NCBI GenBank assembly: GCA_946006945.1
Contig: CAMFZN010000003.1
Coordinates: forward strand, 1 to 49,241
Source of the DNA: an uncultured Clostridia bacterium
GTDB lineage: Bacteria > Bacillota > Clostridia > Peptostreptococcales > Anaerovoracaceae
Direction of reading: 5' to 3'
DNA length: 49,241 bases
Shown: positions 1,178 to 23,099 of the stretch, piece after piece
Layout: the number at the start of each line of letters is the position of its first letter
How positions within the stretch are numbered: the stretch's first letter is position 1
Program-made: the position numbers and the translations under genes
Notes under the pieces: generated by a model
What the model was told of the DNA's origin: nothing
Seen by the model: only the letters and a program-made list of their open reading frames with translations
The model's database searches: none

Positions 1178-1228
1178 GATTAATTGTGAGATTTAACAAA
1201 ATTTTGTAAAATTCTAACAAAAAAACTA

Positions 1229-1257
1229 TTGACATAAACACAAAGAGTTGTTATATT
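1229..1257 (+). promoter_or_regulatory. Sigma-70-type promoter for the met leader/metNIQ operon
   Basis: TTGACA (1229-1234), 17 nt spacer, TATATT (1252-1257); transcript start expected near 1264. Confidence 0.75.
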
Positions 1258-1308
1258 TAACATGCACCAGGGAGGTGCGACCTAAATCTATGAAAGGAGC
1301 ATATTCAC

Positions 1309-1374
1309 ATGTCAAGATCAATGATGATGATGGAAATGGGAATGATGGGCATGTGCATGTGCGCTGCAAGTTAA
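1309..1374 (+). CDS. Methionine-rich leader peptide (21 aa, MSRSMMMMEMGMMGMCMCAAS), predicted attenuator peptide
   Basis: ATG preceded by GAAAGGAG RBS (1292-1299, 9 nt spacing); TAA at 1372-1374; 10 of 21 codons are ATG; located between promoter and intrinsic terminator upstream of metN. Confidence 0.85.
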   Translation: MSRSMMMMEMGMMGMCMCAAS

Positions 1375-1412
1375 CATAGGTTGAGGTCTGACAGAATGCT
1401 GGATAATCTATG
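1375..1412 (+). promoter_or_regulatory. Leader RNA hairpin competing with the antiterminator (CATAGGTTG / TAATCTATG)
   Basis: 1375-1383 pairs with 1404-1412 (9 bp including two G-U), starting directly after the leader stop codon. Confidence 0.5.
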
Positions 1413-1435
1413 ATGTTTGTCGTAGGTGTATTTAT

Positions 1436-1469
1436 CAGGGCAGGTCGGAAGACCGAGCCCTGTTTTTTT
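1436..1469 (+). terminator. Intrinsic terminator (attenuator) upstream of metN
   Basis: CAGGGC-A-GGTC-GGAA-GACC-GA-GCCCTG followed by TTTTTTT; lies before the metN start and inside the transcription unit. Confidence 0.9.
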
Positions 1470-1498
1470 ACTGACTGTTGAAGGGAGAATGAACGAAA

Positions 1499-2527: not shown

Positions 2528-3186
2528 TGGAAACATCAGTACTTATCGGATTGCTCTGGACAGGTCTTCTCGAGACACTGTACATGACAATAGTATCTAC
2601 GCTGGTAGCATACATCATCGGACTTCCTATCGGAGTCAGCCTTGTTCTTACAGATCCTAACGGAATAAGACCTGTAAGCTGGTACAACAAGATTGTAGGC
2701 TTCGTCGTTAACGTAATAAGATCCGTACCATTCCTGATTCTCATGATTGCACTGATGCCATATGTAAGAATGGTAATCGGTACAGGAATCGGAACTCAGG
2801 CTACAGTAGCCGTACTCATAGTAGCAGCAGCGCCTTTCGTTGCAAGACTCGTTGAGCAGTCACTCAAAGAGGTTGATCCGGGAGTAATAGAGGCGGCTCA
2901 GTCGATGGGTGCATCTACTTTAACAATAGTAACCAAGGTGCTCCTAACAGAGGCAAGACCATCACTTCTTAACGGAGCGGCAGTATCAACAATCACAATT
3001 CTCGGATACTCGGCGATGGCCGGAGTTGTAGGCGGAGGCGGACTCGGAGACCTCGCCATCAAGTACGGAATGTACAGATATGAGACAACAATCATGTGGA
3101 TTACAGTAGTTGTGCTCGTAATACTGGTTCAGATTCTCCAGGAGATCGGAATCAAGGTTGCTCACAAGCTGGACAACCGAATCTAA
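2527..3186 (+). CDS. metI: Methionine ABC transporter permease
   Basis: 219 aa membrane protein; TIVTKVLLTEARPSLLNGAAVSTITILGYSAMAGVVGGGGLGDLAIKYGM typical of MetI. Confidence 0.95.
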   Translation: METSVLIGLLWTGLLETLYMTIVSTLVAYIIGLPIGVSLVLTDPNGIRPVSWYNKIVGFVVNVIRSVPFLILMIALMPYVRMVIGTGIGTQATVAVLIVAAAPFVARLVEQSLKEVDPGVIEAAQSMGASTLTIVTKVLLTEARPSLLNGAAVSTITILGYSAMAGVVGGGGLGDLAIKYGMYRYETTIMWITVVVLVILVQILQEIGIKVAHKLDNRI

Positions 3187-3238
3187 ACAAGCTTATAAAA
3201 ATTTTTCATTCAATATTTGGATTAAGGAGGGAACAGAA

Positions 3239-4057
3239 ATGAAAAATCTTAAGAAAATCGTTGCTCTCGGAGCAGTGCTCGTACTCGCTATCTCTTCTCT
3301 TGCAGGATGCGGCGGAAGCTCATCAGAGGAGGATACAACTATCAAGGTTGCAGCTACACCTAACCCACATGCAATCCTGCTTGAGAAGATTAAGGACACT
3401 CTCGCAGACGAGGGATATACTCTCGAGATTGTGGAGTTCGAGGATTATGTAAAGCCTAACCAGGCTGTAACTGACGGTGACGTTGATGCTAACTTCTTCC
3501 AGCACCAGCCATACCTCGATCAGTACAACGAGGAGAACGGAACTGACATCGTATCAGTAGGCGGAGTTCACTACGAGGCAATGGGAATCTACAAGGCTCA
3601 GAAGAGCGCTATCGACGAGCTCAGCTCAGGAGACAAGATCGGTGTTCCTAACGATGTAACTAACGAGGCAAGAGCTCTTCAGCTCCTCGAGGCTAACGGA
3701 GTTATCACTCTTAAGGAAGGTAAAGGACTCACAGCAACTAAGGCTGACATCGTTGAGAATCCATACGGAATCGAGATCGTAGAGCTTGACGCAGCTATCA
3801 TCCCTAACACTCTTCCAGACCTTGCACTTGCAGTAATCAACGCTAACTACGCACTTGAGGCAGACATCACAGATGATGCAATCGCAGTAGAGGCAGCAGA
3901 TTCAGATGCAGCTACAACATACGCTAACATCGTTGCCTGCGCAAAGGGTAATGAGGACAGCGAGAAGATTCAGGCTCTCATCAAGGCTCTTCAGAGCGAC
4001 GAGGTTAAGGACTTCCTCGAGGAGGAGTACAAGGGCGTAATCAAGGCTACATTCTAA
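3239..4057 (+). CDS. metQ: MetQ/NlpA-family methionine-binding lipoprotein
   Basis: ATG at 3239 after AAGGAGGG; lipobox SSLAGC; KVAATPNPHAILLE and FFQHQPYLDQYNEENGTDIVSVGGVHYEAMGIY. Confidence 0.95.
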   Translation: MKNLKKIVALGAVLVLAISSLAGCGGSSSEEDTTIKVAATPNPHAILLEKIKDTLADEGYTLEIVEFEDYVKPNQAVTDGDVDANFFQHQPYLDQYNEENGTDIVSVGGVHYEAMGIYKAQKSAIDELSSGDKIGVPNDVTNEARALQLLEANGVITLKEGKGLTATKADIVENPYGIEIVELDAAIIPNTLPDLALAVINANYALEADITDDAIAVEAADSDAATTYANIVACAKGNEDSEKIQALIKALQSDEVKDFLEEEYKGVIKATF

Positions 4058-4325: not shown

Positions 4326-5345
4326 ATGAATATTCTAGTAACGGGAGGAGCGGGCTTTATCGGCAGCAATTTCGTTTTCTATGAACTGGAGAAGCATCCG
4401 GAGGATCGAATCGTTGCGCTCGATGCGCTTACGTACGCAGGCAACCTTGAGACTCTGAAGCCGGTCATGGACTGTGAGAATTTCAGATTTGTAAAGGGCG
4501 ACATTACAGACAGAGAGGCGATGGACAGACTCTTTGCTGAGGAAGGCTTCGATATCGTTGTGAACTTTGCGGCAGAGTCGCATGTGGACAGATCGATTGA
4601 GAATCCCGGAGTATTCCTCGAGACCAACATTCTCGGAACGCAGGTGCTGATGGATCAGGCGAGAAAGCACGGAGTTAAGAGATTCCACCAGGTTGGAACC
4701 GACGAGGTCTACGGAGATCTGCCCCTCGATAGACCGGATCTGTTCTTCGTCGAGACAATGCCTCTTACGGCGTCGAGTCCATACTCTGCATCAAAGGCGT
4801 CCGCAGATCTTCTTGTAATGGCTTATCACAGAACCTTCGGACTTCCTGTTACCATCTCGAGATGCTCAAACAATTACGGACCTTATCAGTTCCCTGAGAA
4901 GCTGATTCCGCTTATGATCGCAAATGCGATGGCGGACAAGGAGCTTCCTGTCTACGGAGAAGGTCTGAATGTCAGAGACTGGCTCTACGTGGAGGATCAC
5001 TGCAAGGCGATCGACATGATTATCAGGGAAGGAAAGGACGGCGAGATATACAATATCGGAGGTCACAACGAGAGGGCTAACATCGATGTTGTAAAGACGA
5101 TTCTGAAGGAGGTAGGAAAGCCTGAATCGCTGATTAAGTATGTAAAGGACAGAGCCGGCCACGATCTGAGATACGCAATAGATCCGACCAAGATTCACGA
5201 TGAGCTCGGCTGGGAGCCTGAGACTCCGTTCGATGAGGGAATAAAGAAGACAATAAGATGGTACCTCGATAATGAGGAGTGGTGGAAGAACATCATATCG
5301 GGAGAGTACCAGCAGTATTACGAGAAGATGTACGCTGACAGATAG
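4326..5345 (+). CDS. rfbB: dTDP-glucose 4,6-dehydratase (RfbB-type SDR)
   Basis: [81 protein letters not shown]. Confidence 0.92.
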
Positions 5346-5371
5346 CACGCGTGCAAAAGGAGGAAGCATAG

Positions 5372-6499
5372 ATGATACCTTTCAACAAGCCGCCATATGT
5401 AGGCACTGAGCCGGAATATATGATGAAGGCAATAAGCAACAGAAAAATATGCGGAGACGGAGAGTTCACAAAGAAGTGCAATACATGGATTGAGGAGAAG
5501 ACCGGAACAAGCAAGGCTCTTCTGACAACATCGTGCACACAGGCTCTTGAGATGGCAGCTCTTCTGACTGATATCGAGCCGGGAGATGAGGTCATCATGC
5601 CTTCGTTTACATTCGTATCTACAGCAAATGCTTTTGTCATGAGGGGTGCCAGAATTGTGTTCGTAGACATCAGACCTGACACACAGAACATAGATGAGAA
5701 GCTTATCGAGAACGCGATTACAGACAAGACAAAGGCAATCGTTCCTGTTCACTATGCCGGTGTCGGCTGTGAGATGGATACCATTCTTGAGATAGGAAGA
5801 AAGCACGGCATCAGAGTAGTGGAGGATGCAGCCCAGGGCGTAATGTCCACATATAAGGGAAGGGGGCTCGGAAGTCTTGGAGACTTCGGTTGTTACAGCT
5901 TCCATGAGACAAAGAATTACAGCATGGGCGAGGGCGGTGCGATTCTGATTCGCAATGAGGCCGATATAGAAAGAGCCGAGATTGTAAGAGAGAAGGGAAC
6001 TGACAGAAGCAGATTCCTGAGAGGTCAGGTTGACAAATACACCTGGGTGGACTGCGGTTCATCATACCTCCCAAGCGATATCAATGCGGCATACCTCTGG
6101 GCGCAGCTCGAGGAGGCGGATAAGATTAATCAGGATCGCCTCGCAAGCTGGAACATGTACTACGAGAGACTTAAGCCTCTTGAGGAGAAGGGAATACTGC
6201 AGCTTCCATACATTCCTGCTGAGTGCGAGCACAATGCCCACATGTTCTACATCAAGACAGGAAGCCTTGAGGAGAGAACTGCACTGACAGCATATCTTAA
6301 AGATGCGGGAGTCGGCTCTGCCTTCCACTACGTTCCGCTTCACAGTGCACCTGCCGGGGAGAGGTTCGGAGTTATGGCAGGAGAGGACAGATATACAACC
6401 AACACATATGAGAGACTTCTGAGACTGCCGATGTACTACGGACTGACAGAAGAAGAGATAGAGAAAGCATGCAACAGAATCATGGAATTCTATAAATAA
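5372..6499 (+). CDS. rffA: dTDP-4-amino-4,6-dideoxygalactose transaminase (RffA/WecE-like, DegT/DnrJ family)
   Basis: MIPFNKPPYVGTE, GDEVIMPSFTFVSTANAFVMRGARIVFVDIRPDTQNIDE, FHETKNYSMGEGGAI, RGQVDKYTWVDCGSSYLPSD closely follow the WecE/RffA pattern. Confidence 0.9.
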   Translation: MIPFNKPPYVGTEPEYMMKAISNRKICGDGEFTKKCNTWIEEKTGTSKALLTTSCTQALEMAALLTDIEPGDEVIMPSFTFVSTANAFVMRGARIVFVDIRPDTQNIDEKLIENAITDKTKAIVPVHYAGVGCEMDTILEIGRKHGIRVVEDAAQGVMSTYKGRGLGSLGDFGCYSFHETKNYSMGEGGAILIRNEADIERAEIVREKGTDRSRFLRGQVDKYTWVDCGSSYLPSDINAAYLWAQLEEADKINQDRLASWNMYYERLKPLEEKGILQLPYIPAECEHNAHMFYIKTGSLEERTALTAYLKDAGVGSAFHYVPLHSAPAGERFGVMAGEDRYTTNTYERLLRLPMYYGLTEEEIEKACNRIMEFYK

Positions 6500-6547: not shown

Positions 6548-8119
6548 ATGATATTACAGCTTGCAGGAAAATGCAAAAGACGACTATCGAGATTGGTTAA
6601 TCCAAGACGAAAGTATATTGAATACTATGAGAGACTTCCAATTGATGAGCATGCAGTTCTTCTGGAGGGAAGCAGAGGAAGAACAATTGACGGAAATATC
6701 TATTACTGTACACTTGAATTGCTAACAAACGAGCTGTTTAAAGAGTACAGAACTATTCTGGTGATAAAGAATAAGGAGCAGATCAAAACATCATTTGATA
6801 AATACGGTGAAATTGCCGGTCGTATTACCTTTGTGATACATGGATCCAAAGAATACTACAGAGCTGTTGCAACCTGCAAGTATCTGGTTAATGATTCGAC
6901 TTTTGCACCTTTCTTTATCAAAAGAAGGGAGCAGGTATACCTGAATACATGGCACGGTACTCCGCTAAAGACTATGGGCTGCAAAAACAACTCTGAGATA
7001 GATGTCCTGGGCAATGCTCAGCATAATTTCTGTATGGCGGACTACTTCCTTGCACCAAATACAATGACCGAGCGTGTAATGACAGAAGATTACATGGTGG
7101 ATGATATCTCCTCAGCTACTCAGCTGCATGTGGGATATCCGAGAAATACAGCGTTTTTCTCAGACGGAAATGAACTGAGAAGCAGGCTGGGGTTAGAAGG
7201 AAAGACGGTATACGCGTACCTGCCGACGTGGAGAGGCGTGACTTCAACAGCAGATCAAAGCGCAAATAAGGCAATTGAGAGTCATTTGTCCGCAATTGAT
7301 GCTCTCCTTTCAGACGATGAGGTGATGCTTGCCAAGCTGCATCATTTAAGCAGAACAGAAATCGACTTTAATAAGTTCCAACACGTGATATGTTTTCCTG
7401 AGGCAAAGGAAACATATCAGGTCTTGAACCTTGCTGATATTCTGATTACAGATTATTCAAGTGTAATGTTTGATTATGCGGTAAGCGGAAGACCAATAGT
7501 GATGTTTGTTTACGACAAAGAGGAATATGAGAAAAACAGGGGCTTTAATATTAATCCTGAAGAACTACCGTTTGAAAAGGCGGAAACGGCAGAAGAGTTA
7601 GTTTCACTGCTTAGAAGGGCTCGTGTAACAGAGGGCCAGAAGGAATTTGTTAATAGCTTTTGTCCATGGGATGCACCTGATGCAACGACTCAGCTCATGA
7701 AGCAGCTGATATTTGGTGAATCAAATATTGAAGCGGTTCCAACTTTCTCCAATGGAAAGAAAAACATTCTTCTGTACAACGGATCTCTTGAGTCAGGCAA
7801 AGCAGTTAATCAGATAAAACATTACTTGGAAGATAAAGATTTACTGGAGGCGAACTGGTATATAGCTTTCTATACAATGAAGAGCAAGGAAAGCATAGAG
7901 GTTCTGAGAGACCTTATTAATTCATGCGAAGGGATAAGATATCTTGAGTTCAGGGGTAGAAGAAACGACTGCAGAAACAGGAAATCAGGATTGGTTCACG
8001 AGTATGAGAGATTGTTAGGTTACATGAAATTTGACACCATAATAACACTGGAGTCTTCAGATGGAAGACTTGAGGAACTTCTTGAGGAAGCAAACATATC
8101 ATACGAAGGGGCAGAATAA
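6548..8119 (+). CDS. CDP-glycerol glycerophosphotransferase family protein
   Basis: TWHGTPLKTMG, HNFCMADYFLAPN, ILITDYSSVMFDYAVSGRPIVMFVYDKEEYEKNRG. Confidence 0.88.
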   Translation: MILQLAGKCKRRLSRLVNPRRKYIEYYERLPIDEHAVLLEGSRGRTIDGNIYYCTLELLTNELFKEYRTILVIKNKEQIKTSFDKYGEIAGRITFVIHGSKEYYRAVATCKYLVNDSTFAPFFIKRREQVYLNTWHGTPLKTMGCKNNSEIDVLGNAQHNFCMADYFLAPNTMTERVMTEDYMVDDISSATQLHVGYPRNTAFFSDGNELRSRLGLEGKTVYAYLPTWRGVTSTADQSANKAIESHLSAIDALLSDDEVMLAKLHHLSRTEIDFNKFQHVICFPEAKETYQVLNLADILITDYSSVMFDYAVSGRPIVMFVYDKEEYEKNRGFNINPEELPFEKAETAEELVSLLRRARVTEGQKEFVNSFCPWDAPDATTQLMKQLIFGESNIEAVPTFSNGKKNILLYNGSLESGKAVNQIKHYLEDKDLLEANWYIAFYTMKSKESIEVLRDLINSCEGIRYLEFRGRRNDCRNRKSGLVHEYERLLGYMKFDTIITLESSDGRLEELLEEANISYEGAE

Positions 8120-8120
8120 C

Positions 8121-11100
8121 ATGTCAATAAAGAGTGTTGTAAAACGAGCGAGGGCATACGAGAAGGAGAAGAAGGGAAAGAAATCAGGTGCTATTCTTTG
8201 TTTTACTGAGGCTTGCGAAAAAAAGCCGGTAGTTAAGAATAGAATTCTGTTCGAGTCTTTCCACGGAAAGAATATTTCAGACTCACCGTTGTTTGTTCTT
8301 AAGGAGCTGCTGAAAAGAGAAGACGCAGACAAGTTTGAAATTTTCTTTTCTACAAATGATATCAATAGAGATGGAGAAACAATAAGGTCTCTGGGCAAAA
8401 ACATAAAGCCCGTCATAGTTGATACAAAGGAATATGCAGATATTCTTGCAACTGCTCAATTCCTTATTAACAATAGTTCTTTCCCTTTATGGTACATCAA
8501 ACGAGAAGAGCAGACTTATATTCAGACCTGGCATGGAGTTCCCCTGAAAACATTGGGAAAGAGAATGCGTCTGGGAATAGAGTCTATGTATAATGTTCAG
8601 CACAACTTTCTTCAGGCGGATTACATTCTGTTCCCTAATGAATTTACAAGAGAAGCAATAATGAGAGACTATAATCTTGAGCTTCTGTATACGGGCAAGG
8701 TAGTGATGTCCGGCTATCCTCGAAATGATATTTTTCATGACAGAGAACGCGAACAGGCAGTAAAAAGACAGTATAAGCTCGAGGGAAAAAAGAATTACGC
8801 ATATATGCCTACATGGCGTGGAACAAGCAATCATAGTATTAACATTGAAGATTACGAAAAAGATATAGACGAAATACTGATACAGCTTGACAAGTCGTTA
8901 AAGGACGACGAGATGCTTTATGTCAATCTTCACTCCATGGTTTCTTCACGAATTACAATAGACGAGTATAGTCACATCCGTTCTTTTCCTGAGGGTGTGA
9001 ATAACTATGAGTTTCTGAACGCAATGGATGTTCTGATAACTGATTACTCAAGTGTATTCTTTGATTTTTCAATTACGGGAAAGCCTATAGTTCTTTTCAC
9101 ATACGATTTGGAGGAATATAAAGCAGATAGAGGGCTGTACATTGATATTGAAGAGATGCCATTCACCAGGGCAGATTCAGTTGAAGAGCTCATCGATATA
9201 ATAGATAATGGAGAGTATCCTGTGGATGAAGCTCTGATGAAAGAATATAAACATAGATTTCTTTCATATGAATCACCGTACAACTCAGCTAAGCTTCTCT
9301 CTCTATTAGTAGACAGGAACGAAGAAGGCTTGGAGATTATTGACTATAGCGTCAATTCTAGCAAAACATGGAATTATAAAAAATACGATGAAGTGCCAAG
9401 CGTAGCCTTTCTCGATGATATGTGCAGGGGGATTGATCCAGATAATGAAATCCTTGTGCTGCCTAGAAACGGTTTCACAGAGGAGATGTCTGTTCTTCTG
9501 CATGATAAATACAGAGATTCGTTCAACTTTGTATTCTCAAGAAATGAAACTACAAGCACAACTAAAGAAAGATTATTAAAGAGAAAAGCACTGAAGAAAA
9601 TACTTCTAAAGAGAGACGAAAAGAGAATTTTTGCAGGTCTTAATGTCAGAAAGGCAAATAATGCCATATGCTCAGTTAATGCAGGATCATACTGCACAGC
9701 GCAGCCTTCTGCTGAGCTCTCTTGTGATGTACTGATTCAGCAAAAGGGTATCTGTATTAGTGCTGATTTTTCAGAATTAAATGAACCATGCGCAGTGGTA
9801 TTAAAAGGCAGCGGAGAGGTCGTATATGCGAGAGGCCTAAATGATGTGGAAATCGAAAACGGACAGGTATATCTGGAACTTCGAAATGTGCTTCTCAATG
9901 AAACTCTTAAGAAGAGCGAACGGTTAAGCCTGCATCTTACGGACAAAAAAGACAGAATGCCAAAAATCGTGTCGCTTAAACCAAATTCTGTACATAGAAC
10001 TGAATTATGCGATGGACTAATTGGAACTATAGCATATGAATCAGATGAGTTTACCGAAGATGAGAAAAGAATATCAAGATTTGTAGATAAATCCGATAGT
10101 GTTCAGATATGCATCAACGTAGTGACAAACTCTCGAACAGGAAATCTCCAGCTGGTGTGCAACCATGGCTCTGCCGACGTAGAAACAATATGGAGGAGCA
10201 GAGTAAAGAGATTCAATATACACAAAGATGGCAGGGTGAGGATTGATGTTGAATTAGATGATATGGGCGGAGAAATACAGGGAGTATTGCTGAGAAGCAG
10301 AAGCAGCGACAACCCGGAGGAGATTCCTGTTACATATCACATCGATTCAGCTGAGAATAAACAGTTAATCAGAATTACTTTCAATGTAAAGGAGCTTAAT
10401 ATCAAAGAGTTCTTCTGGGATCCTGTCATTAGGCTCACATACAAGGGTGCTGAAAGAGAAGTAAAGCTTCGCTGTCATTCAAGAAAACAGATTCTTGGGC
10501 TCAGAATACGCGACCCTCAGGTTCGTATGGATGATGGAATGTCTGCAGTTTTCTATACAACTCGTTCCGGAGATATAGCAATAAACTACAGAAAAGCATC
10601 TGAATATGAGACTGCCTTATTAAGGTTGAAGGAATTTCTTGCTCTATTCGTATTCTACGCCATGTACCCATATTGGAAGAGAAAAAAGATATGGCTGGTA
10701 TACGAGAAATTCTGTCAGCTTGCGCAGGATAATGGATATTATTTCTTTGAATATTGTATGAGAAATAAGAAGAACAGGGACAACGTATTCTATGTAATTA
10801 ACAAGAAGGGAAAAGACTACTCCAATGTAGAAAAATATGGCAAAAACGTTGTCGACTTCATGAGCTTTAGACATCTTCTTTATCTTCTGGCTGCAAGTAT
10901 ATATGTGGGCTCAGATTCGAAATCCCATCTTTATGTGTGGAGGTCGAGACCAAGCTTAATTCAGGATAAAGTAAGAAGAAAGAAAGTCTTCTTCCTCCAG
11001 CATGGAGTTACAGCAATGAAAAGAGTGGATCCTCTATTTGGAAAACGGGGATCAAGTCCGATGACATACTTCACCACTACTTCGGGAAACGAGCAGCAGA

Positions 11101-11771
11101 TTGTTACGAAGTATTTTGGTTACAAGCAGTCTGAAGCACCTATTACAGGATTCGCTCGATGGGATGTTCTAGAGGATAAACAGAATAAGAACAATCCTCA
11201 GGTACTGGTAATGCCTACATGGAGAGCCTGGCTCGAAGAAACTTCCGAACAGACATTCCTAAGCAGTGAATACTTCCTAAAGTATTCAAGCTTGATCCAA
11301 AGCAAGACTCTCGGCAAACTGCTTGAAGATAACAATATAAAGCTAGTGTTCTATATTCACCCGAAGCTGAGCGAGCATATTCGATTGTTTACTGCAAATA
11401 ATCCTAGGATTGAACTTGTTGAGCAAGGGTCAAGATTGCTGAATGAAATAATGATGGAGTCTTCGATGCTGATTACGGATTACTCCAGTGTTGCGTGGGA
11501 TATGCTTTATATGAATAAGCCGGTAGCATTTTATCAGTTCGACAGTGACAGGTACCTGTCATTAACCGGCAGCTACATTGACTTCGAGACTGAGCTTCCG
11601 GGAAAGATCTGTAAAGAAGAATGGGAAGTTATTTCAGAAATAGATGCAGCGTGCAGCAATAACTGGGAACTTAGCAAGAGAGCCTCGGCATTATGTGAGG
11701 GATGGTATTCAAATAAGGACAAGAATAATTCTAAGAGAACTTTTGAGTTTTTAAAGCAAAAGGGATATTAA
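8121..11771 (+). CDS. Large bifunctional CDP-glycerol glycerophosphotransferase family protein (two transferase domains)
   Basis: N-terminal TWHGVPLKTLG...TDYSSVFFDFSITGKPIVLFTYDLEEY; C-terminal FFLQHGVTAMKR...MLITDYSSVAWDMLYMNKPVAFYQFD; ATG at 8121 is preferred over the track start at 8061. Confidence 0.88.
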   Translation: MSIKSVVKRARAYEKEKKGKKSGAILCFTEACEKKPVVKNRILFESFHGKNISDSPLFVLKELLKREDADKFEIFFSTNDINRDGETIRSLGKNIKPVIVDTKEYADILATAQFLINNSSFPLWYIKREEQTYIQTWHGVPLKTLGKRMRLGIESMYNVQHNFLQADYILFPNEFTREAIMRDYNLELLYTGKVVMSGYPRNDIFHDREREQAVKRQYKLEGKKNYAYMPTWRGTSNHSINIEDYEKDIDEILIQLDKSLKDDEMLYVNLHSMVSSRITIDEYSHIRSFPEGVNNYEFLNAMDVLITDYSSVFFDFSITGKPIVLFTYDLEEYKADRGLYIDIEEMPFTRADSVEELIDIIDNGEYPVDEALMKEYKHRFLSYESPYNSAKLLSLLVDRNEEGLEIIDYSVNSSKTWNYKKYDEVPSVAFLDDMCRGIDPDNEILVLPRNGFTEEMSVLLHDKYRDSFNFVFSRNETTSTTKERLLKRKALKKILLKRDEKRIFAGLNVRKANNAICSVNAGSYCTAQPSAELSCDVLIQQKGICISADFSELNEPCAVVLKGSGEVVYARGLNDVEIENGQVYLELRNVLLNETLKKSERLSLHLTDKKDRMPKIVSLKPNSVHRTELCDGLIGTIAYESDEFTEDEKRISRFVDKSDSVQICINVVTNSRTGNLQLVCNHGSADVETIWRSRVKRFNIHKDGRVRIDVELDDMGGEIQGVLLRSRSSDNPEEIPVTYHIDSAENKQLIRITFNVKELNIKEFFWDPVIRLTYKGAEREVKLRCHSRKQILGLRIRDPQVRMDDGMSAVFYTTRSGDIAINYRKASEYETALLRLKEFLALFVFYAMYPYWKRKKIWLVYEKFCQLAQDNGYYFFEYCMRNKKNRDNVFYVINKKGKDYSNVEKYGKNVVDFMSFRHLLYLLAASIYVGSDSKSHLYVWRSRPSLIQDKVRRKKVFFLQHGVTAMKRVDPLFGKRGSSPMTYFTTTSGNEQQIVTKYFGYKQSEAPITGFARWDVLEDKQNKNNPQVLVMPTWRAWLEETSEQTFLSSEYFLKYSSLIQSKTLGKLLEDNNIKLVFYIHPKLSEHIRLFTANNPRIELVEQGSRLLNEIMMESSMLITDYSSVAWDMLYMNKPVAFYQFDSDRYLSLTGSYIDFETELPGKICKEEWEVISEIDAACSNNWELSKRASALCEGWYSNKDKNNSKRTFEFLKQKGY

Positions 11772-11776
11772 AATAT

Positions 11777-13882
11777 ATGATAAACAATTCAGCAAACGCA
11801 GTAAAAGATTCAATAAAAGCAGTTCTGACGGCAGGATGTATTGCTATGCTGGCGATAGCTGTGGTTTATTTCAAAGCAAATACGCTTGAAATACTTAGCT
11901 TTGTCGCCTACATCATAGTTTATGTACATTGTCCGGGTGCATTGATAAACAGTCTTTTGGGAATAAAGACAAGGCATGCATCGTCGTCATTACTTTTGGC
12001 ATTGTATTCCGGGTGGGCTCTATTGGTTGCACAGTATTTTGCATGCATCCTGACCGGATTGACGCCAATACTGTATGCAGCTGGCCCATGCTTATCTGCG
12101 GTATATGTATATAGAGTAGGGCTGAGCAGGAAGAAGAGTGTGCAGAGGGTTGAAATCAAAGCCTGGCTGAGAGACAGCTCAACGTGGCTGTTCGCCTTCA
12201 TTTTCTTCATGATGCTGTATACAATGCTAAGGACTCAGTATAGAATCATTAATCCTGAGTATGCTCAAATGACATACATCTTCAAGGATACCACTTACCA
12301 TGCGGGAATAATGAACTCCCTTAAAGATGGATTCCCGGCAGCTAATCCATGGCTTGACGGAGGTACCATATACTATCATTTCTTCAGTGAGATTCTCTGT
12401 GCTGTGTGTATGTTACTGTTCGGACACGATTCTGTATTTATGGTGTCTACAGCAATGCCGCTTCTCACTGTATATGCTGCAGGACTTGGAATATATGGCC
12501 TTCTAAAGGAATTCCTGAAGAGAAAAGAACGGGCCGGGTTTTATTCAATGTGCCTTATGCTGTCAAGCGCTTTTGTTACAGAAGTGGATACAGAGGCATG
12601 GGCAATTGATCTTATATTTGGAAACTATAACTATGTAGCATTTGCCGTTGCGGGAGCAGCCAGCGTGATAATAGCTTTGAGATACTGCTTTGAAGCGGAA
12701 ATTGGATCAAAAGATTTCTATTTGAGAAATGCAGTTGTAGCTTTGCAGATAGCTGTTCTTACAGGAATAAAGGGACCGACCGGCTTGATTATGGTTGGAG
12801 CAATGTGGGGAACATGGATTCTTGGTGTGATATTAAAAAGAGTAAAAGCATCTATTGCTCTTCCATTGCTTATAAATACAATTGCATTTGGAATTGTATA
12901 CAAGCTTGTGATATCTGCTCCCGGAACCAGCAAAGGGGTTTCTGAAAATGCAATACAGCTTGGCGCTATTATAGACAAATGCTTCTGGAAACCGATAATC
13001 ATAGATTTTCTGAAGGAGCAGAATACTCCAAGCATTATGATTTATTTAGTTCTTCTGCTGATGCTGGGGATAACCTTCTATACAATTTATTTTTTGCCGG
13101 CAGTAATAGGATATATCAGAGAGTTGTTTTGTGTGCTTTCGGGCAGAAAAGAATATGATTTTGCCAGAGTAACGGTGTACGCAGCGTTTCTCATGGGAAT
13201 AGTGTTGATGTCGATTCTAAAATATAACGGAAGAAGTCAGATATACTTCGGAATCACATCTCTTATGTTTGCACCACTGATTACGGGCTGGTATTTCGAA
13301 GAAGCGGATAGCAGCAACGGAAGAATAACAAGAACACTTAGCTCAATAGCAAAAGCATATTTCATAATATGCCTGGCTGCATGCAGTGCACTGACTGTGA
13401 TGGATACTGCGTATTGCATTAGAAAGGCAGTCGCAACTGCAAATGAAGACGTTCATTTCAATACTTATGAGACCGTAACACAAGACGAGTATAAGGCTTT
13501 AAAGTGGATAAAGGAGAATACTCCGGAGGACTGTCTGATAGCTGTTGATAGATACTATTCAACAAGTCTTGCTGAATACAGCTATGAGAATCGATGGGAT
13601 AACTGCTTCTTCACTTATGCAGTATACGCTGACAGAAACTGCTTCTTCGAGGGAGCGGGATACAACATGAAGGATGAGGAATCAGAAACCAGGAAAAAGC
13701 TCATTGAAGTTAATAACCGGCTTTATGACAAGAATAATAATGAAAGAGGCATACTGGCTGAGAGTCTGGGCGTAGATTATGTTTATGTCACTAAAAGAAT
13801 GAATGACTGCGGAGATCTTGAAGATGACAAATACAGAAAAGTCTTCGAAAACAATGGAGCTGCAGTATATGAAATCAGATAG
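11777..13882 (+). CDS. Polytopic membrane protein, possible GT-C-type glycosyltransferase
   Basis: 701 aa with many hydrophobic segments and a C-terminal soluble region (DEYKALKWIKENTPEDCLIAVDRYYS) of the type seen in membrane glycosyltransferase-like proteins; surface-polymer context. Confidence 0.6.
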   Translation: MINNSANAVKDSIKAVLTAGCIAMLAIAVVYFKANTLEILSFVAYIIVYVHCPGALINSLLGIKTRHASSSLLLALYSGWALLVAQYFACILTGLTPILYAAGPCLSAVYVYRVGLSRKKSVQRVEIKAWLRDSSTWLFAFIFFMMLYTMLRTQYRIINPEYAQMTYIFKDTTYHAGIMNSLKDGFPAANPWLDGGTIYYHFFSEILCAVCMLLFGHDSVFMVSTAMPLLTVYAAGLGIYGLLKEFLKRKERAGFYSMCLMLSSAFVTEVDTEAWAIDLIFGNYNYVAFAVAGAASVIIALRYCFEAEIGSKDFYLRNAVVALQIAVLTGIKGPTGLIMVGAMWGTWILGVILKRVKASIALPLLINTIAFGIVYKLVISAPGTSKGVSENAIQLGAIIDKCFWKPIIIDFLKEQNTPSIMIYLVLLLMLGITFYTIYFLPAVIGYIRELFCVLSGRKEYDFARVTVYAAFLMGIVLMSILKYNGRSQIYFGITSLMFAPLITGWYFEEADSSNGRITRTLSSIAKAYFIICLAACSALTVMDTAYCIRKAVATANEDVHFNTYETVTQDEYKALKWIKENTPEDCLIAVDRYYSTSLAEYSYENRWDNCFFTYAVYADRNCFFEGAGYNMKDEESETRKKLIEVNNRLYDKNNNERGILAESLGVDYVYVTKRMNDCGDLEDDKYRKVFENNGAAVYEIR

Positions 13883-13920
13883 CAGAGCTTCAGGATGATG
13901 AAGCCCTAATATGAGAAGAA

Positions 13921-13955
13921 GAGCCGTAATCAGAGTGTTACTTTGATTGCGGCTC
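13921..13955. terminator. Hairpin between convergent genes, likely bidirectional terminator
   Basis: GAGCCGtAATCA...TGATTgCGGCTC. Confidence 0.6.
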
Positions 13956-13962
13956 AGATTAT

Positions 13963-15522
13963 TTATTTATGAATCAGCTTGTCTCTTTCAAGAAGATGAA
14001 CTATTCTTTCAGTATTTCTGTTATCGTGATATTGAACTATTGACCTGTAGTTCTCCACATATTCTTTCTTTTGCTCTTTAAGGTACAGTTCATCAAGAGC
14101 ATCAGAGATATTGGAGTCATAATTCACGATTCCAAACGCTTCATTCTCTTTAAGAAGGAGCTCCGCACTTGGACCATAATGCTTGATGCATTCACTTAAC
14201 TCTTCCCAGCAGAAAATAATATTGGAGCCTCTGTAAAACGCATCGTATGAAATCGAAGAATAATCAGTGACCAGTACGGCTGCTTCCCTAAGAATTTCAT
14301 CGTATGTTTTCGCGAAAATATCGCTGCTCCAAAGATCGGATTCCTTATCTTTGAATAGAGGATGAGGAATTATAACGGTTTTGTCCTTGTATTTAGCGGG
14401 TATGCTGTCGGCTATCTTGACCAGCATTCTGTAGTAACTGGTTTCTTCCATTGGGAGATTTGCTTCCCACGGACGCCAGGTCAGCATGATTACAATTTTG
14501 TCAGCGTAATCGTATTTGATGCATCTGTCAAATTTAGCAAATCCAGTTATATACATATCCTCGGCAGTGTAGCTCGTACAGTTGATAAACTGATCGGCCT
14601 CCTTCTGTGACGAAACTACAACCCTTTGGATTCCCTTACTCTCTCTCTTTTTGTAGAATGCTCGCTGCTCGGATGCCAGTGAAATCATGTATGTAACTCC
14701 ATGCTGAAGAAACACATAATTCTTATTTCCTCTCAGAAACATTCTTGAGAAAATCCTGGAGCTGCAGTACTTGTCAAGCGCATGAGCGAGTGTTTCTGTA
14801 GAGATAACGGTGCGACATGCAAAAAGAAGGTAATAGTGCATGAAGGAGTATTTCCTGACGATGTGCTTAGCAGGCGAGCCTCCTTCGAGTATATAGTATA
14901 TGCCTTTATATCCATTCCTCATTAATTCTTCGAAAAGCACAGATGCACTTTCTTCATAGCCCCTGCAGTTCTTTTCATACATGATGACCGGCCTGAAGAA
15001 AGGAGTCAGGAGGTGAAGCATGTAAGCCAGATACAGCTTGAATTCTTCAACTCTTCTGTCTGTAACATTCATGTCACGATATTCTATGCAGAATCTGTTA
15101 TTCTTGGTTTTAATCATGCAGACTTTATTATTCTGCAATCGCTTCATCTTGTTCTTTAGCTCTCTTGGTTTAACAAAATCAATGAACTGTGAACTGCCGT
15201 TTGATTCCACTAGAATTGAAGGGAAGTTATTTACGTCTTGCATCAATTCATATGGGACAACAAACTCCAGCCTGATGGAGTCCAGCGGCTGGCTATTATC
15301 TTTATTTGTTGTACAGCATAATTCAGTTCCATTCACTCGAACCGTGTTGCATACAAGCAGCTTCTCTTTGAAGTGAACAGACAATTCAAGACGAATCCCT
15401 TCACTCGTAGGAAAAAACCGGAATTTATCGATGTTTGCACAGAGGCTGCTGTTATTCTCTGTGGCAGCTTCATTCATTCTGCTGGTCAATTCGTTGATGG
15501 CACAGCGATTCGAACAATACAA
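13963..15522 (-). CDS. CDP-glycerol glycerophosphotransferase family protein
   Basis: YVFLQHGVTYMISLASE, VLVTDYSSISYDAFYRGSNIIFCWEEL; resembles the C-terminal half of the 8121-11771 product. Confidence 0.82.
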   Translation of the reverse strand: MYCSNRCAINELTSRMNEAATENNSSLCANIDKFRFFPTSEGIRLELSVHFKEKLLVCNTVRVNGTELCCTTNKDNSQPLDSIRLEFVVPYELMQDVNNFPSILVESNGSSQFIDFVKPRELKNKMKRLQNNKVCMIKTKNNRFCIEYRDMNVTDRRVEEFKLYLAYMLHLLTPFFRPVIMYEKNCRGYEESASVLFEELMRNGYKGIYYILEGGSPAKHIVRKYSFMHYYLLFACRTVISTETLAHALDKYCSSRIFSRMFLRGNKNYVFLQHGVTYMISLASEQRAFYKKRESKGIQRVVVSSQKEADQFINCTSYTAEDMYITGFAKFDRCIKYDYADKIVIMLTWRPWEANLPMEETSYYRMLVKIADSIPAKYKDKTVIIPHPLFKDKESDLWSSDIFAKTYDEILREAAVLVTDYSSISYDAFYRGSNIIFCWEELSECIKHYGPSAELLLKENEAFGIVNYDSNISDALDELYLKEQKKEYVENYRSIVQYHDNRNTERIVHLLERDKLIHK

Positions 15523-15694
15523 TCGCTGCTACTCCTTTCGTAGTTCAATTAAAAGCTTTATAACAGTATCATTATACTAAATTGATGATACTTGTTCCAC
15601 ATCGAGCAGTAAGCTAAAAGTATATTTTTACAGGAATATGTAGTAAGATTAATAGAAAGAAGATACATTGTTGGCATTATGGAGATTTCACTAA

Positions 15695-17308
15695 ATGGAC
15701 AAAACACAGACTGAGCTTATAGGGCTGCTTAAAGAAATAGATGATATATGCAGGAATCATGGAATCACATACTTCCTTGATGGCGGAACAATGCTTGGAG
15801 CAGTTAGACACGACGGCTTTATTCCCTGGGATAATGATGCTGATATTGCAATGACCGAGGAGAACTATAGAAAATTTGCCGAGGTCGTGAATGCAACAAC
15901 TGAGACCACTAACAGATGTGTTATGGATAATAGAATAAACAGGGAATATCCTCTAGAAATTGGGAGATATCTGAATCTTGATATGACAAAAATTACATCA
16001 ACAAGCCCTTGGTGGAATGTTGAGAAACCATATGCAGGCCTTATGATAGACATCTTTCAGATGATTCCGTTGCCAAAGAATCCGCATAAGAAGAAGCTAA
16101 TGATGGATAGATTCTGTGCTTATGCCGAATTCAGCAATGAAAGCAACAGGCGAAGCGGAAGAAGGACGGAGCAATCCATAGCAATCTATAAGCGAGCAAA
16201 ACTGGCGGCGCGCTTTGTCGGAAAAGAGCGAGTGCTGCGATGGTTTGAGAGAAAAATATTCAACCAGGGACTGACGGATTTCGATGAATATATGTACGTT
16301 CAGTCAGGACGAAAGATCCCGAGAGTATTCCCAAGGGAGCATTTTGACAGTGAGCCGGTTAGAAAACCTTTTGAAGGAATGATGCTGCCTGTATCCAGAT
16401 ACTATCACGAGGAGGCAAGAGTATTCTTTGATGATGATTATTGGAGAATACCTGGTCAGGAAGGACAGCTGGTACATGCTCCAATAAACAATGCCAACAT
16501 TCCCTGCAGGCTTTATGTTAAGGACTATATGAGGTTTCTTGATCCGGAGGTTGTGAAGAAAACAAGGCTAGAGGCAAAGGAAAGCCATGTAAAAGAGGGT
16601 GTTTTGCGCCAGAAAGCGAGCGTTGCATTATGTATCAGAAGAATTGAGCTTGCCTGCGCAGCGCTGTACAGCAGGCTTGAGAAAGAGCAAATTGATCTGA
16701 TTGAGGAATTGAACAAGGAGAATTATGTACTGTTAAATGAATTGTTTGATACCTATTTCAAGGAACAATTTCGTGATCAAGCCAAGTATTGGCCGGCAAT
16801 TGTTGAAATGAGAGAAGATGCCATATATACAGCTATTATGATACTTATTAATGACAGGGGTGATTATGGCAAAGCTTCATGGCTGCTAAGGTCGTATAAA
16901 GAGAATATTCATAATGTACCCGAATCCCTTAATAAGATACAGGAGCTTCTTGATTGTGTATTCTATGCAAGGTCGCGCTTTGACTATGGAGAATATGAAA
17001 AGGGCTCAAGGTTCATCCGTAATGGCTTGGCCATGTTCCCGAATAATAGAGAACTACGGATATGGGATTTAAGATATAGAGTTCAACTATCTGAAGAGAA
17101 TGATAGTACACTTCTGATGCATGAAGCAGATAAACTTGCTCTGGAATTCCCGGATTCAGAGTACCCAACCAAGATAAAGGGAGATATTCTCTGGAAGAAG
17201 GGCGCAAAGGATGATGCAATGAAGCTGTATGAGTCGATTTACGAGTCGTCTAGAGATGGTATGCTTAGACTTGATGTTGAAAGAAAGAGAGGTCAGACAC
17301 GTGAATGA
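15695..17308 (+). CDS. LicD family phosphotransferase with helical/TPR-like C-terminal region
   Basis: ITYFLDGGTMLGAVRHDGFIPWDNDADIAMTEENYRKF is a canonical LicD motif. Confidence 0.88.
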   Translation: MDKTQTELIGLLKEIDDICRNHGITYFLDGGTMLGAVRHDGFIPWDNDADIAMTEENYRKFAEVVNATTETTNRCVMDNRINREYPLEIGRYLNLDMTKITSTSPWWNVEKPYAGLMIDIFQMIPLPKNPHKKKLMMDRFCAYAEFSNESNRRSGRRTEQSIAIYKRAKLAARFVGKERVLRWFERKIFNQGLTDFDEYMYVQSGRKIPRVFPREHFDSEPVRKPFEGMMLPVSRYYHEEARVFFDDDYWRIPGQEGQLVHAPINNANIPCRLYVKDYMRFLDPEVVKKTRLEAKESHVKEGVLRQKASVALCIRRIELACAALYSRLEKEQIDLIEELNKENYVLLNELFDTYFKEQFRDQAKYWPAIVEMREDAIYTAIMILINDRGDYGKASWLLRSYKENIHNVPESLNKIQELLDCVFYARSRFDYGEYEKGSRFIRNGLAMFPNNRELRIWDLRYRVQLSEENDSTLLMHEADKLALEFPDSEYPTKIKGDILWKKGAKDDAMKLYESIYESSRDGMLRLDVERKRGQTRE

Positions 17309-18518
17309 TGTTCAGAAGATTCTCGTTAAACTGCTTTCAGAAATTGATGACATTTGTGAAAGAGCCTCAATTAATTATTCTCTGACAGAGAAAACTGCAA
17401 TTATGGCACTTAACAGCGGATGCTTCACTTGTGATGAATACGTTGCGGAAATAGCTATGACTCTGGACAATTACGACAGGTTCAAACAGATAATAAAATC
17501 GCAAAAGCCGGAGAACAGAGCGCTAGAGTTACCTGAGGAGAATTCGAGACTAGATGGAATTTATGCAAGATATGTAGATTGCAATACCAGCTTCTGGGAT
17601 TTGAGAAGATGCAATGAGTATTTGAATCCGGGAATTGGGGTGACAATAAGGCCGTTGCTGGAAACGGCTCCTAAAGGCAGAATAGTGAAGCTGAGACGGA
17701 TTGCACTAACCCTTAACGCCAAAGCTAACCTGGCTGCCCAGGTGAAATATGGGTCAGTCAGAAGACGCATTAAAGCAATTGGAAGCATGATAGTAAGAAG
17801 CGTATGGGGGAATGCGTCAAAATACAATAGCATTATCACAGGAAAGAAGGAATCATCGAAAACAGTCTATTATCATAATTACAATAATGAAAAAATGAAG
17901 TTCCCAAGGAAACTGTTTAATCGCTATCAGAAAGTTGCCTTTGAGGGAAACGAATTCATGATTGTAGAAGATGCAGCCTCGCTAATAGGTATCCTTGAGA
18001 AGGGCAGGGATAACAGAAGCATAGAAAGCACCAGATTCAACATGGACTCCGTTGCTTTAATATGTGATGTAAATCAACCATATGAAGCGTCACTTACGAT
18101 GATGAAGGATGCACGCAAGTTGTCAGCAATGTACAATGAACACTTGTATTACAGGAAAAATGTATATACTCCGCTGTTTGAAAAGGCGGACAGGCAATGG
18201 AAGAATGTCACAAGAACTAAAGATCGATTCTCTGCATGGGGCAAATACAGCTTAACAAAAGACAGAATCATGACAGAGTACGAAAACGGCAATTTAGAAT
18301 ATACAACGGACGCGCTTTCACTCTACACGAGACTGATTAGAAAATATGCAGATATGAATATGGGCTTCAGCATTGACAACGAATTATTTGATATTTGCAT
18401 TGCTCTGCTTGAGAATCGGGGAGAAGTGGGGCTTGCAAAAAAAGCAAGAAAGCTTCTTCCGCGTGAGTTTAGGGAATCTGTGGGAGAGTTTATTGAGAGG
18501 GAAGAAAGCGTGCTATAA
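17301..18518 (+). CDS. Degenerate LicD-like paralog lacking catalytic motif
   Basis: GTG start at 17301 with GAGAGG RBS, overlapping the upstream stop by 8 nt; INYSLTEKTAIMALNSGCFTCDEYVAEIAMTLDNYDRF aligns without gaps to the LicD motif of the upstream gene. Confidence 0.7.
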   Translation: MNDVQKILVKLLSEIDDICERASINYSLTEKTAIMALNSGCFTCDEYVAEIAMTLDNYDRFKQIIKSQKPENRALELPEENSRLDGIYARYVDCNTSFWDLRRCNEYLNPGIGVTIRPLLETAPKGRIVKLRRIALTLNAKANLAAQVKYGSVRRRIKAIGSMIVRSVWGNASKYNSIITGKKESSKTVYYHNYNNEKMKFPRKLFNRYQKVAFEGNEFMIVEDAASLIGILEKGRDNRSIESTRFNMDSVALICDVNQPYEASLTMMKDARKLSAMYNEHLYYRKNVYTPLFEKADRQWKNVTRTKDRFSAWGKYSLTKDRIMTEYENGNLEYTTDALSLYTRLIRKYADMNMGFSIDNELFDICIALLENRGEVGLAKKARKLLPREFRESVGEFIEREESVL

Positions 18519-20530: not shown

Positions 20531-20684
20531 ATCGATTCTCCTCGCAACATGATAGAAATATTCTTTTTTTTACTTTTATTTATTATTATACTATAATTAC
20601 TATGTATTTTTGTGTAGGTGAAAGAAAGATGATATTTCATTGACATAGATAGTGTGAATAAACGATTCAAAAGAGGTAGTGTGG

Positions 20685-21926
20685 ATGGAGAAACGAAAGA
20701 AAAGAATTCATCTTTTCCCAAGAGGGAGAGCTCTGAAGATACTGTGGTTTGTTAATCTGTTAGCAGCGATAGCATTTCTTGCGCTGCTTACAGTTGTTAA
20801 TGCATTCCCTGCAAAACTGACAATGTATATTCTTGCAGTATTCTTTGCATTGCTGATTATATCTCAGATTCTTATTACAATCAGGTCAAGGAATAAACTG
20901 CCAAGAATTATTGGAGTGCTGCTTTCTGCAGTGTATCTCTGTATTACTCTTGTTGGCGTGTATTATCTATACTCAACCTTCAGCACCTTCAGCAGAATAG
21001 GAGGAAATGAGGCTGCCAACAGCGGTTTCGATCTTACCGAGGAACCGTATAATGTATATTTCACCGGAATCGACCAGTGGGATACTGAGAAGGGCAAGGA
21101 CCTTGAGAGAAGCGATGTTAATATGATCGCCACGGTAAATCCTGTGACAAAGAAGATTCTTCTGACCTCAATACCAAGAGATGCCTATGTGCCACTTGCA
21201 AAGAACGGTGCAATGGACAAGCTTACACATACAGGAATCTACGGAGTCGACGAGACAATCAACACTGTTGAGGGCTGGCTTGGCATAGATCTCAATTACT
21301 ATGTTAAGGTGAACTTCACAGGCGTTTGTGATGTAATAAATGCGATTGGAGGAATAGATGTGTACTCACCTGAGTCATTTGTTCCGGAGAAATACGACAC
21401 ATGGACTGTAAAGAAGGGCTGGAATCATATGACGGGAAAGAAAGCGCTTTCTTTTGCCCGTGAGAGACACTCCCTGAAGAAGGGTGATGCCAGCAGAGTG
21501 CTTAACCAGCAGAGGGTCGTTAAGGGAATCATAAGGAAGCTTACAACCAGCACGGCGGTTATTACTTCGTATACAGATCTTCTTGAGGTTGTAGACAAGC
21601 ACGTCGGCACCAACATGACGAGAAGCGAGATGATAAGTCTTGCCAAATCGGAGATGCTTAATCTCGGAGGCTGGGAGATAAAGACACAGTCGCTGGACGG
21701 CGTCTATGGACAGGAGACTGTTGCGAGCCTTTCGTCTGCGAACAAGTACAGCGTTTTCAAGGTTGACGAGAAGTCAATCGATAAGTGTCTTGCCAAGATG
21801 GATGCAGTAATGAATCCGGATGAGGAAGAGGTGAATGCAATCCTCGAGAAGAGATACAAGGAGCAGCAGAAGAGCAGCATAGACTCCTTCATAAGCACGC
21901 TTAAGAACATGGTAAAGAAAAAGTAA
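20685..21926 (+). CDS. LytR-CpsA-Psr (LCP) family protein
   Basis: YNVYFTGIDQWD, SDVNMIATVNPVTKKILLTSIPRDAYV, DKLTHTGIYG, FARERHSLKKGDASRVLNQQRVVKGI. Confidence 0.93.
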   Translation: MEKRKKRIHLFPRGRALKILWFVNLLAAIAFLALLTVVNAFPAKLTMYILAVFFALLIISQILITIRSRNKLPRIIGVLLSAVYLCITLVGVYYLYSTFSTFSRIGGNEAANSGFDLTEEPYNVYFTGIDQWDTEKGKDLERSDVNMIATVNPVTKKILLTSIPRDAYVPLAKNGAMDKLTHTGIYGVDETINTVEGWLGIDLNYYVKVNFTGVCDVINAIGGIDVYSPESFVPEKYDTWTVKKGWNHMTGKKALSFARERHSLKKGDASRVLNQQRVVKGIIRKLTTSTAVITSYTDLLEVVDKHVGTNMTRSEMISLAKSEMLNLGGWEIKTQSLDGVYGQETVASLSSANKYSVFKVDEKSIDKCLAKMDAVMNPDEEEVNAILEKRYKEQQKSSIDSFISTLKNMVKKK

Positions 21927-21968
21927 AAACATAATCTACTAAAGTAATCACGAAAGGTACTGTTATTA

Positions 21969-23099
21969 ATGTTTACAGATACAACGTTATTTCTCAGGAT
22001 TGTCACGATGTTTCTGCTGGCGTTTGCAATCGCTTTTGTATTGACGCCGCTGAGCATCAAGCTTGCCTACAAGATAGGTGCTGTTGATGTGCCGCTTGAC
22101 AAGAGAAGAATGCACAGCAGACCTATTCCAAGGTTCGGTGGCATTGCGATGTTTCTCTCTGCCACAATATCAATCCTGCTGCTTGACGGAAGCTTTCCAA
22201 AGATTCAGATTGCACTGATTGGTGGTGCGTTCATGTATCTTCTTGGAGCAATCGATGACCTTAAGAACCTGAAGCCTCTTACAAAGGCTACAGGCCAGGT
22301 TGTGATAGCATGCTTCGTATATATGATGGATATTAGAATCGACTTTATTTCGATGGTTTTCTCGGAAGGCAAGTATAACTTTGGCGACGGTCTGTCGCTC
22401 ATCATTACGGTTCTCTGGATTGTTGGAATAACAAATGCCGTTAACCTTATTGACGGACTTGATGGACTTGCAGGCGGAGTTACATGCATAATCTCACTTA
22501 GCCTTGCATACATCGCATACATACACGGCTCGATATACGGTTCAGTATCGGTTATGCTTGCGCTGATGGCTCTCGCGGGAGCGTGCGCAGGATTTCTGCC
22601 ATATAACTTCAGTCCGGCGAAGACATTCATGGGTGACGGCGGTGCGCTTTTCCTCGGATATATGATCGCGGTTCTTTCCGTAATATCACCTCTTAAGAGG
22701 GCAACATTCATTGCGGCCATTACACCTATCGTTGCGCTGGCAATTCCAATCTTTGATACTCTTTTTGCCATTGTCAGAAGAAGTATCAAGAGAATTCCTA
22801 TTCTCGAGGGAGACAAGGGCCACCTCCATCACAGACTGATGAAGGCGGGCTACGGGCAAAGGCGTTCAGTTCTCATCATTTACGGAATTGTTGGAATAAT
22901 GGGCATGGTATCGGTTCTTATCAGCCGTGAGCTGTATAAGGATGCGTTCTTTCTTTCGCTCATTGCGGTTCTTTATCTTTGCGTAATTCTCATAGAGAAG
23001 AAGCCGAAGAACAAGCATCATGTGACAACCAAGCCAAAGACTGAAGAACACTATGATGTCATAAAGGGACCAAAGGAGATTCATGATGACAGGGATTAG
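21969..23099 (+). CDS. Undecaprenyl-phosphate GlcNAc-1-phosphate transferase family (TagO/WecA)
   Basis: DKRRMHSRPIPRFGGIAMF, GAIDDLKNLKPLTKATGQ, NAVNLIDGLDGLAGGV, FMGDGGALFLGY, GDKGHLHHRLMKAGYGQR. Confidence 0.93.
   Translation: MFTDTTLFLRIVTMFLLAFAIAFVLTPLSIKLAYKIGAVDVPLDKRRMHSRPIPRFGGIAMFLSATISILLLDGSFPKIQIALIGGAFMYLLGAIDDLKNLKPLTKATGQVVIACFVYMMDIRIDFISMVFSEGKYNFGDGLSLIITVLWIVGITNAVNLIDGLDGLAGGVTCIISLSLAYIAYIHGSIYGSVSVMLALMALAGACAGFLPYNFSPAKTFMGDGGALFLGYMIAVLSVISPLKRATFIAAITPIVALAIPIFDTLFAIVRRSIKRIPILEGDKGHLHHRLMKAGYGQRRSVLIIYGIVGIMGMVSVLISRELYKDAFFLSLIAVLYLCVILIEKKPKNKHHVTTKPKTEEHYDVIKGPKEIHDDRD

Follow-up and report, generated by a model that had tools for sequence, protein, structure and literature searches.

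The window, the whole 49,241-nt stretch of contig CAMFZN010000003.1 analyzed here, carries on its plus strand an unbroken ORF (8121–11771) whose 1216-aa product matches the Pfam family PF04464 twice (total E 1.3e-108). At the genome level the two matches lie at 8220–9308 (E 3e-69) and 10698–11750 (E 5e-43), far beyond chance, and both domains, hereafter the N head and the C head, score over the curated Pfam cutoff (Table 1). A purine-rich GGGG at 8108–8111, resembling a ribosome-binding site, precedes the ATG at 8121; the longer mechanical start, at 8061, lies within the upstream gene. An assembly chimera was rejected as the origin of the ORF, since the same architecture occurs in more than 30 independent loci.

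Single-headed relatives of both halves are encoded on either side, and the resemblances to them that the earlier note had pointed out are real. The upstream product (6548–8119) shares with the N-terminal half PF04464, the WHG type and 35% identity, and the minus-strand product (13963–15522) shares with the C-terminal half PF04464 and the QHG type, with 22% identity to the C head. In our tree of heads, the upstream gene falls within the wider group holding the WHG heads of L085 and L020. The GT4-like tail of its product has its match in the initial ~95 aa of the GT4 region encoded by L078 10757 (E 2e-10). The alpha/beta extension that follows the N head was considered as a counterpart of this truncated tail and rejected, as the two did not align.

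Together, the TagO/WecA-type, LCP, LicD, rfbB and wecE-type genes of the window fit, as expected, a decorated wall polymer, and sugar supply genes of the rfbB and wecE type likewise occur near the double heads of congeners. Two further genes were observed in the window: 11777–13882 encodes a 701-aa membrane protein with no Pfam match, with homologs next to double-headed genes observed in a single genome (L073/L082), and 18666–19985, inside the wall polymer locus, encodes an L,D-transpeptidase with a fibronectin III domain.

Table 1. Features of the window, and plasmid-borne double heads of opposite order. Positions are those of the window unless a locus is named.
Feature	Position	Strand	Remarks
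rfbB (dTDP-glucose 4,6-dehydratase) and wecE-type aminotransferase	4326..6499	+	Sugar supply
Single WHG-type TagF-like protein with truncated GT4-like tail	6548..8119	+	PF04464; relative of WHG heads fused in L019/L021/L085/L020
Double-headed TagF-like protein	8121..11771	+	1216 aa; ATG 8121; two PF04464 domains
N head, WHG type, PF04464	8220..9308	+	Residues 34-396; on TagF/TarF/TarL side of tree
WHG motif	8529..8537	+	Residues 137-139; His138 aligns with TagF His444 (3l7i alignment)
Second catalytic His, N head	8931..8933	+	His271; aligns with TagF His584
Alpha/beta extension after N head	9318..9665	+	Residues 400-515; AlphaFold2 secondary structure
Variable beta module(s)	9708..10190	+	Residues ~530-690; missing in short-linker homologs
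Beta-domain of QHG half	10188..10625	+	Residues ~690-835; profile match to stand-alone QHG proteins
C head, QHG type, PF04464	10626..11768	+	Residues 836-1216; QHG clade
QHG motif	10998..11006	+	Residues 960-962; catalytic His961
Second catalytic His, C head	11358..11360	+	His1080
Single QHG-type TagF-like protein	13963..15522	-	Groups (100%) with QHG heads of double-headed L085, L020
Two LicD-family proteins	15695..18518	+	Domain match
LCP ligase and TagO/WecA-type initiating transferase	20679..23099	+	Profile matches
Plasmid Q-W double heads	L091 4116-7304 (Staphylococcus saprophyticus); L094 3098-6286 (S. epidermidis)		1062 aa; opposite order

Two heads of opposite type and the linker between them

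Two complete transferase signatures of different subtype had been described in this protein, and both are present as described: a WHG motif with TDYSS at residues 307–311 in the N head, and a QHG motif with TDYSS at residues 1119–1123 in the C head. The catalytic histidine pair of TagF (H444 and H584) has equivalents in each head, His138/His271 and His961/His1080. The N head can be aligned with Staphylococcus epidermidis TagF (3L7I), itself single-headed, along 315 aa, and both histidine equivalents are conserved. Across homologs, the His271 position is invariant in 47/47 WHG-side heads; in QHG-clade heads the motif histidine (50/50) and the His1080 position (50/50) are invariant and the motif glutamine is present in 39/50. 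The C head thus retains both its PF04464 membership and a full set of catalytic residues. A catalytically silent head, acting as an acceptor-binding or oligomerization domain, has a precedent of sorts in one double-headed relative (L058 9899–13621) whose C head has lost the histidine (FFQPG), so that loss was tolerated at least once; this reading is nevertheless highly improbable for the window protein, as the catalytic residues are all intact in both of its heads and in nearly all homologs. The L058 protein reads FFQPGATS and TDYSTV in its C head, and an intact copy is encoded upstream, at 203–3916.

We built an AlphaFold2 model of the protein from 34 homologues (mean pLDDT 85, pTM 0.60). The folds are reliable; because the pTM is 0.60, the mutual arrangement of the two heads is not fixed by the model. 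Foldseek placed Cps3D, TagF, TarL and Bcs3 on top, without giving the head that each match covers, and the matches to TagF, TarL and Cps3D support a GT-B-like fold without assigning it to either head. Cps3D was the best PDB match in both sequence and fold, and S. epidermidis TagF reached a TM-score of ~0.72 on the target. For the C head, the best single-sequence PDB match was the PF04464 head of Staphylococcus aureus TarL (8VA1; E 1e-12), which differs in being single-headed, in carrying WHA instead of QHG and in falling on the WHG side of the tree.

In a phylogeny of 137 heads (IQ-TREE, C20 mixture), where the architectural look-alikes L092 and L096 stood in for the characterized Cps1B, CslB, Ccs2 and GgaB, WHG heads were separated from QHG heads with 100% support. 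The WHG side holds the TagF, TarF and TarL references and the N head; the QHG side holds the C head, EpsJ of the Lactococcus plasmid pNZ4000 (WLQHG), an Escherichia coli GT2-QHG protein and a Citrobacter GT2-QHG-TPR protein. A recent tandem duplication was rejected, because identity between the two heads is 27% and the tree places them on different sides of this split. The two heads are thus anciently diverged TagF-like phosphotransferases in one chain. This result, together with the intact catalytic residues of the C head and the co-inheritance of the pair described below, upholds the proposal that two enzyme types have been fused.

The stretch between the two Pfam domains is mostly beta in the AlphaFold2 model, as had been proposed, and at ~440 aa is somewhat shorter than the 500 aa first estimated. 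Its first part, the alpha/beta extension (residues 400–515), is kept in all full-length homologs; the variable beta module is lacking in homologs of ~1040 aa. A profile comparison matched the last part, at 99.8% probability, to the N-terminal domain that stand-alone QHG proteins carry. Because of this match, the last ~150 aa of the linker can be identified from sequence as the N-terminal beta-domain common to QHG proteins rather than a mere linker, and the linker is in good part a domain of the C-terminal unit. No Pfam family was matched in the linker, and no sequence relative of it was found in the PDB. Folded alone, it gave modest Foldseek scores, with the wall teichoic acid glycosyltransferases RmlT and TarS on top, followed by CBM21 starch-binding domains; a binding or spacing role of the modeled beta-domains is plausible. 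Despite the RmlT and TarS matches, the TarS_C1 region of Staphylococcus was rejected as an equivalent of the linker (7% probability in profile comparison). A TarS_C1 domain was detected in front of the double head in the S. saprophyticus plasmid protein.

Distribution and recurrent pairing of the two head types

When one genome was scanned for each species, 38 loci were returned, the majority covering both heads. Full-length relatives (34–45% identity) occur in Lachnospiraceae, other Clostridia, Erysipelotrichaceae and Coriobacteriia, and a search among relatives of the host found the double head, with a shorter linker, in five congeners. The distribution is patchy, because 390 further species drawn evenly from across the class gave no double-headed match at E 1e-40. 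In both heads the window copy is nearest to Coriobacteriia copies, the N-head grouping being of lower support in the 137-head tree. GC content falls to 38–42% at window positions 8000–16000, coinciding with the TagF-like genes, and is 44–52% in most of the flanks. The Coriobacteriia affinity and the lower GC content suggest lateral acquisition of the double head.

Heads of the two types are joined in both orders. The gathered set contained 41 W-Q ORFs; because the query used to assemble it was itself a W-Q protein, the absence of W-W and Q-Q fusions from it is biased evidence. Q-W fusions were found in a family-mate of the host (L020), in S. saprophyticus (L091) and in S. epidermidis (L094), and the Staphylococcus plasmid proteins carry WHG heads from the TagF/TarF group, that is, from a different WHG stock. 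Because of this different stock, and because the single heads of the window group with those of L085 and L020, the same two head types were joined by at least two, and probably three, fusions. Neighboring genes encode the two head types separately in L065, L066, L059 and on contig C12 of the host, where the genes overlap by 4 nt. In Anaerosacchariphilus polymeriproducens (L066 9992–13662) the halves are separate ORFs that overlap by 49 nt, with the break in the linker, which represents either a split or a frameshift. The pairwise distances of N heads and C heads correlate (Mantel r 0.75, p 1e-4), as expected if the heads have traveled together.

Donor supply and a putative two-site polymerase

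According to a published statement (PMC11666461), WHG marks Gro3P polymerases and QHG marks hexose-phosphate transferases. The motif and the TagF-side position of the N head both class it with glycerol-phosphate transferases, suggesting a candidate enzyme with CDP-glycerol as donor. The gene for CDP-glycerol synthesis, tagD, is the most frequent neighbor of the double head: it lies within 6 kb in 22/42 loci and no more than 300 nt upstream in 16/39 loci with upstream sequence. The tagD-adjacent loci belong mainly to one Lachnospiraceae clade, with Clostridium sp. CAG:217 (L070), L052 and an Erysipelotrichaceae genome (L072) in addition, and all ten tagD-like genes tested, mostly from double-head loci, exceeded the cutoff of TIGR01518 (glycerol-3-phosphate cytidylyltransferase). 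The host genome has one tagD over this cutoff, on contig C19, away from the window gene. In the L072 genome, 14369–15832 encodes a fusion of GpsA (glycerol-3-phosphate dehydrogenase) and TagD.

The same published rule classes the C head, by its QHG motif, with hexose-1-phosphate transferases, suggesting a candidate sugar-1-phosphate transferase that would use a UDP-sugar. The rule draws on one published statement (PMC11666461) and on architecture: GT-A/TagF-like(/TPR) capsule polymerases produce poly(oligosaccharide phosphate) (PMC5974469), and the enterobacterial GT2-fused QHG proteins have an architecture like that of hexose-phosphate capsule polymerases. The pNZ4000 gene cluster that encodes EpsJ, also of the QHG clade, includes no annotated cytidylyltransferase. 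Architecture alone is insufficient to assign a donor, because GT2 is also fused to WHG domains (L052, Staphylococcus HL28). A weak match to the UDP-GlcNAc 2-epimerase family, seen in 16/50 QHG-clade heads and 0/47 WHG-side heads, and not in the C head of the window itself, is a faint hint that QHG heads may bind UDP-sugars.

We also weighed whether both heads might move polyol-phosphates, either two glycerol-phosphates or glycerol- and ribitol-phosphate, yielding a homopolymer or a mixed polyol polymer. Membership of both heads in PF04464, a family named for CDP-glycerol enzymes, is in keeping with this, as are the frequency of tagD and the ribitol genes tarIJ that the nearest Coriobacteriia loci carry within ~10 kb (in two loci, close to the double head or to split relatives of it). 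We nevertheless judge it unlikely: the QHG heads lie deeply apart from every polyol-phosphate enzyme in the tree, including the ribitol polymerase TarL on the WHG side, and the host genome, in an assembly 81% complete, holds only one IspD-family gene, so that the CDP-ribitol donor suggested earlier finds no support there. TagA (PF03808) was not found in the same 81% complete genome.

A further suggestion of the earlier note was a primase plus a polymerase, one head adding the first unit to a lipid-linked primer and the other extending it. Classical pathways do employ two or three PF04464 enzymes acting in sequence, the heads are of different subtype, and models of TarB, TarF and TarL match partly. 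The protein missed the NCBIfam equivalog cutoffs for all three (73.6 bits against 500, 165.9 against 550 and 104 against 1000, respectively), neither head falls within the TarB-like group of the tree, and TarB is the best match to neither. Moreover, contig C19 holds separate TarB-like (WHA) and TarF-like genes next to tagD and a TagH-like ABC transporter for export, and QHG proteins also form part of EPS clusters and of GT2 polymerases, settings in which a primase of this kind would not be expected. The suggestion was therefore abandoned as very improbable.

We propose instead that the double-headed protein may be a cytoplasmic polymerase of an anionic wall polymer with two active sites. The WHG head would move glycerol-3-phosphate from CDP-glycerol with release of CMP, and the QHG head would move sugar-1-phosphate from a UDP-sugar with release of UMP; the beta-domains could bind the chain or act as spacers between the two sites. 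The genes at 20679–23099 could provide initiation, by the TagO/WecA-type enzyme, and wall attachment, by the LCP ligase, while the ABC transporter encoded on contig C19 could see to export. If both heads act on the same growing end, taking turns as the centers of the Cps and Bcs3 machines do, the backbone would probably alternate between glycerol-phosphate and glycosyl-1-phosphate. That the two heads add these two units to one teichoic-acid chain, probably in alternation, has a chance only a little short of even. The two intact heads of different type, their conserved pairing and the linkage to tagD favor the two alternating transfer activities first envisaged; the donors, the alternation and the role of the beta-domains are inferred.

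In a distinct reading, the WHG head polymerizes glycerol-phosphate as a backbone and the QHG head decorates it with sugar-1-phosphate side groups. EpsJ, a single-headed, stand-alone QHG-clade relative of the C head, is encoded in a Wzy-type EPS cluster with its own polymerase and flippase genes, and the pNZ4000 EPS carries a galactose-1-phosphate side group. Stand-alone QHG proteins are, moreover, common (n=27 in the gathered set). That the heads are closely co-inherited and are fused in either order is more in keeping with two steps of a single cycle, and we regard decoration as rather unlikely. Returning to the two-site polymerase, a matching polymer type, poly(glycosyl-1-phosphate - glycerol phosphate), was described chemically in some Gram-positives decades ago, and staphylococci and micrococci have wall polymers alternating glycerol-phosphate and N-acetylglucosamine-1-phosphate; we know of no gene assigned to this polymer type. 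It is a tentative idea, with the odds clearly against it, that the double head is the polymerase of alternating glycerol-phosphate/glycosyl-1-phosphate teichoic acids, and that in gut Clostridia, Coriobacteriia and staphylococcal plasmids its genomic hallmark is the pairing of WHG with QHG heads, whether fused in either order or encoded by neighboring genes.

Multidomain TagF-like polymerases are already known. The capsule polymerases Cps7D/Cps3D, Cps1B and CslB of Gram-negative pathogens are likewise large, multidomain cytoplasmic proteins with a TagF-like domain (PMC5974469, PMC11666461), but in them a single such domain is joined to a glycosyltransferase of the GT-A or GT-B type, often along with TPRs. 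By contrast, the double-headed protein has two TagF-like domains of opposite type and no glycosyltransferase Pfam match anywhere along its length, which places it outside the TagF-like/GT capsule polymerase class (Litschko 2018). The Haemophilus influenzae type b polymerase Bcs3 likewise holds several catalytic centers that take turns on one polymer end, including a related TagF-like domain (CroT), but its other centers are a PRPP-dependent transferase and a phosphatase rather than a second TagF-like head. In the open-access literature we found no paper characterizing two opposite-type TagF-like heads in one chain, and this pairing is the new aspect. Were the donors as proposed, wall polymer chemistry would become readable from sequence, with WHG indicating glycerol-phosphate, QHG sugar-phosphate and the pair an alternating polymer; a protein that is widely distributed in gut commensals and annotated in generic terms would gain a function, and a single-chain enzyme for producing defined phosphoglycans would be at hand. 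The old question of the gene for glycosyl-1-phosphate teichoic acids becomes directly testable, in laboratory strains. Finally, a conjugative Citrobacter freundii plasmid was observed to encode a GT2-TagF-like(QHG)-TPR protein (L096 3540–7724) beside a Stealth protein, in an arrangement resembling a group 2 capsule polymerase locus.
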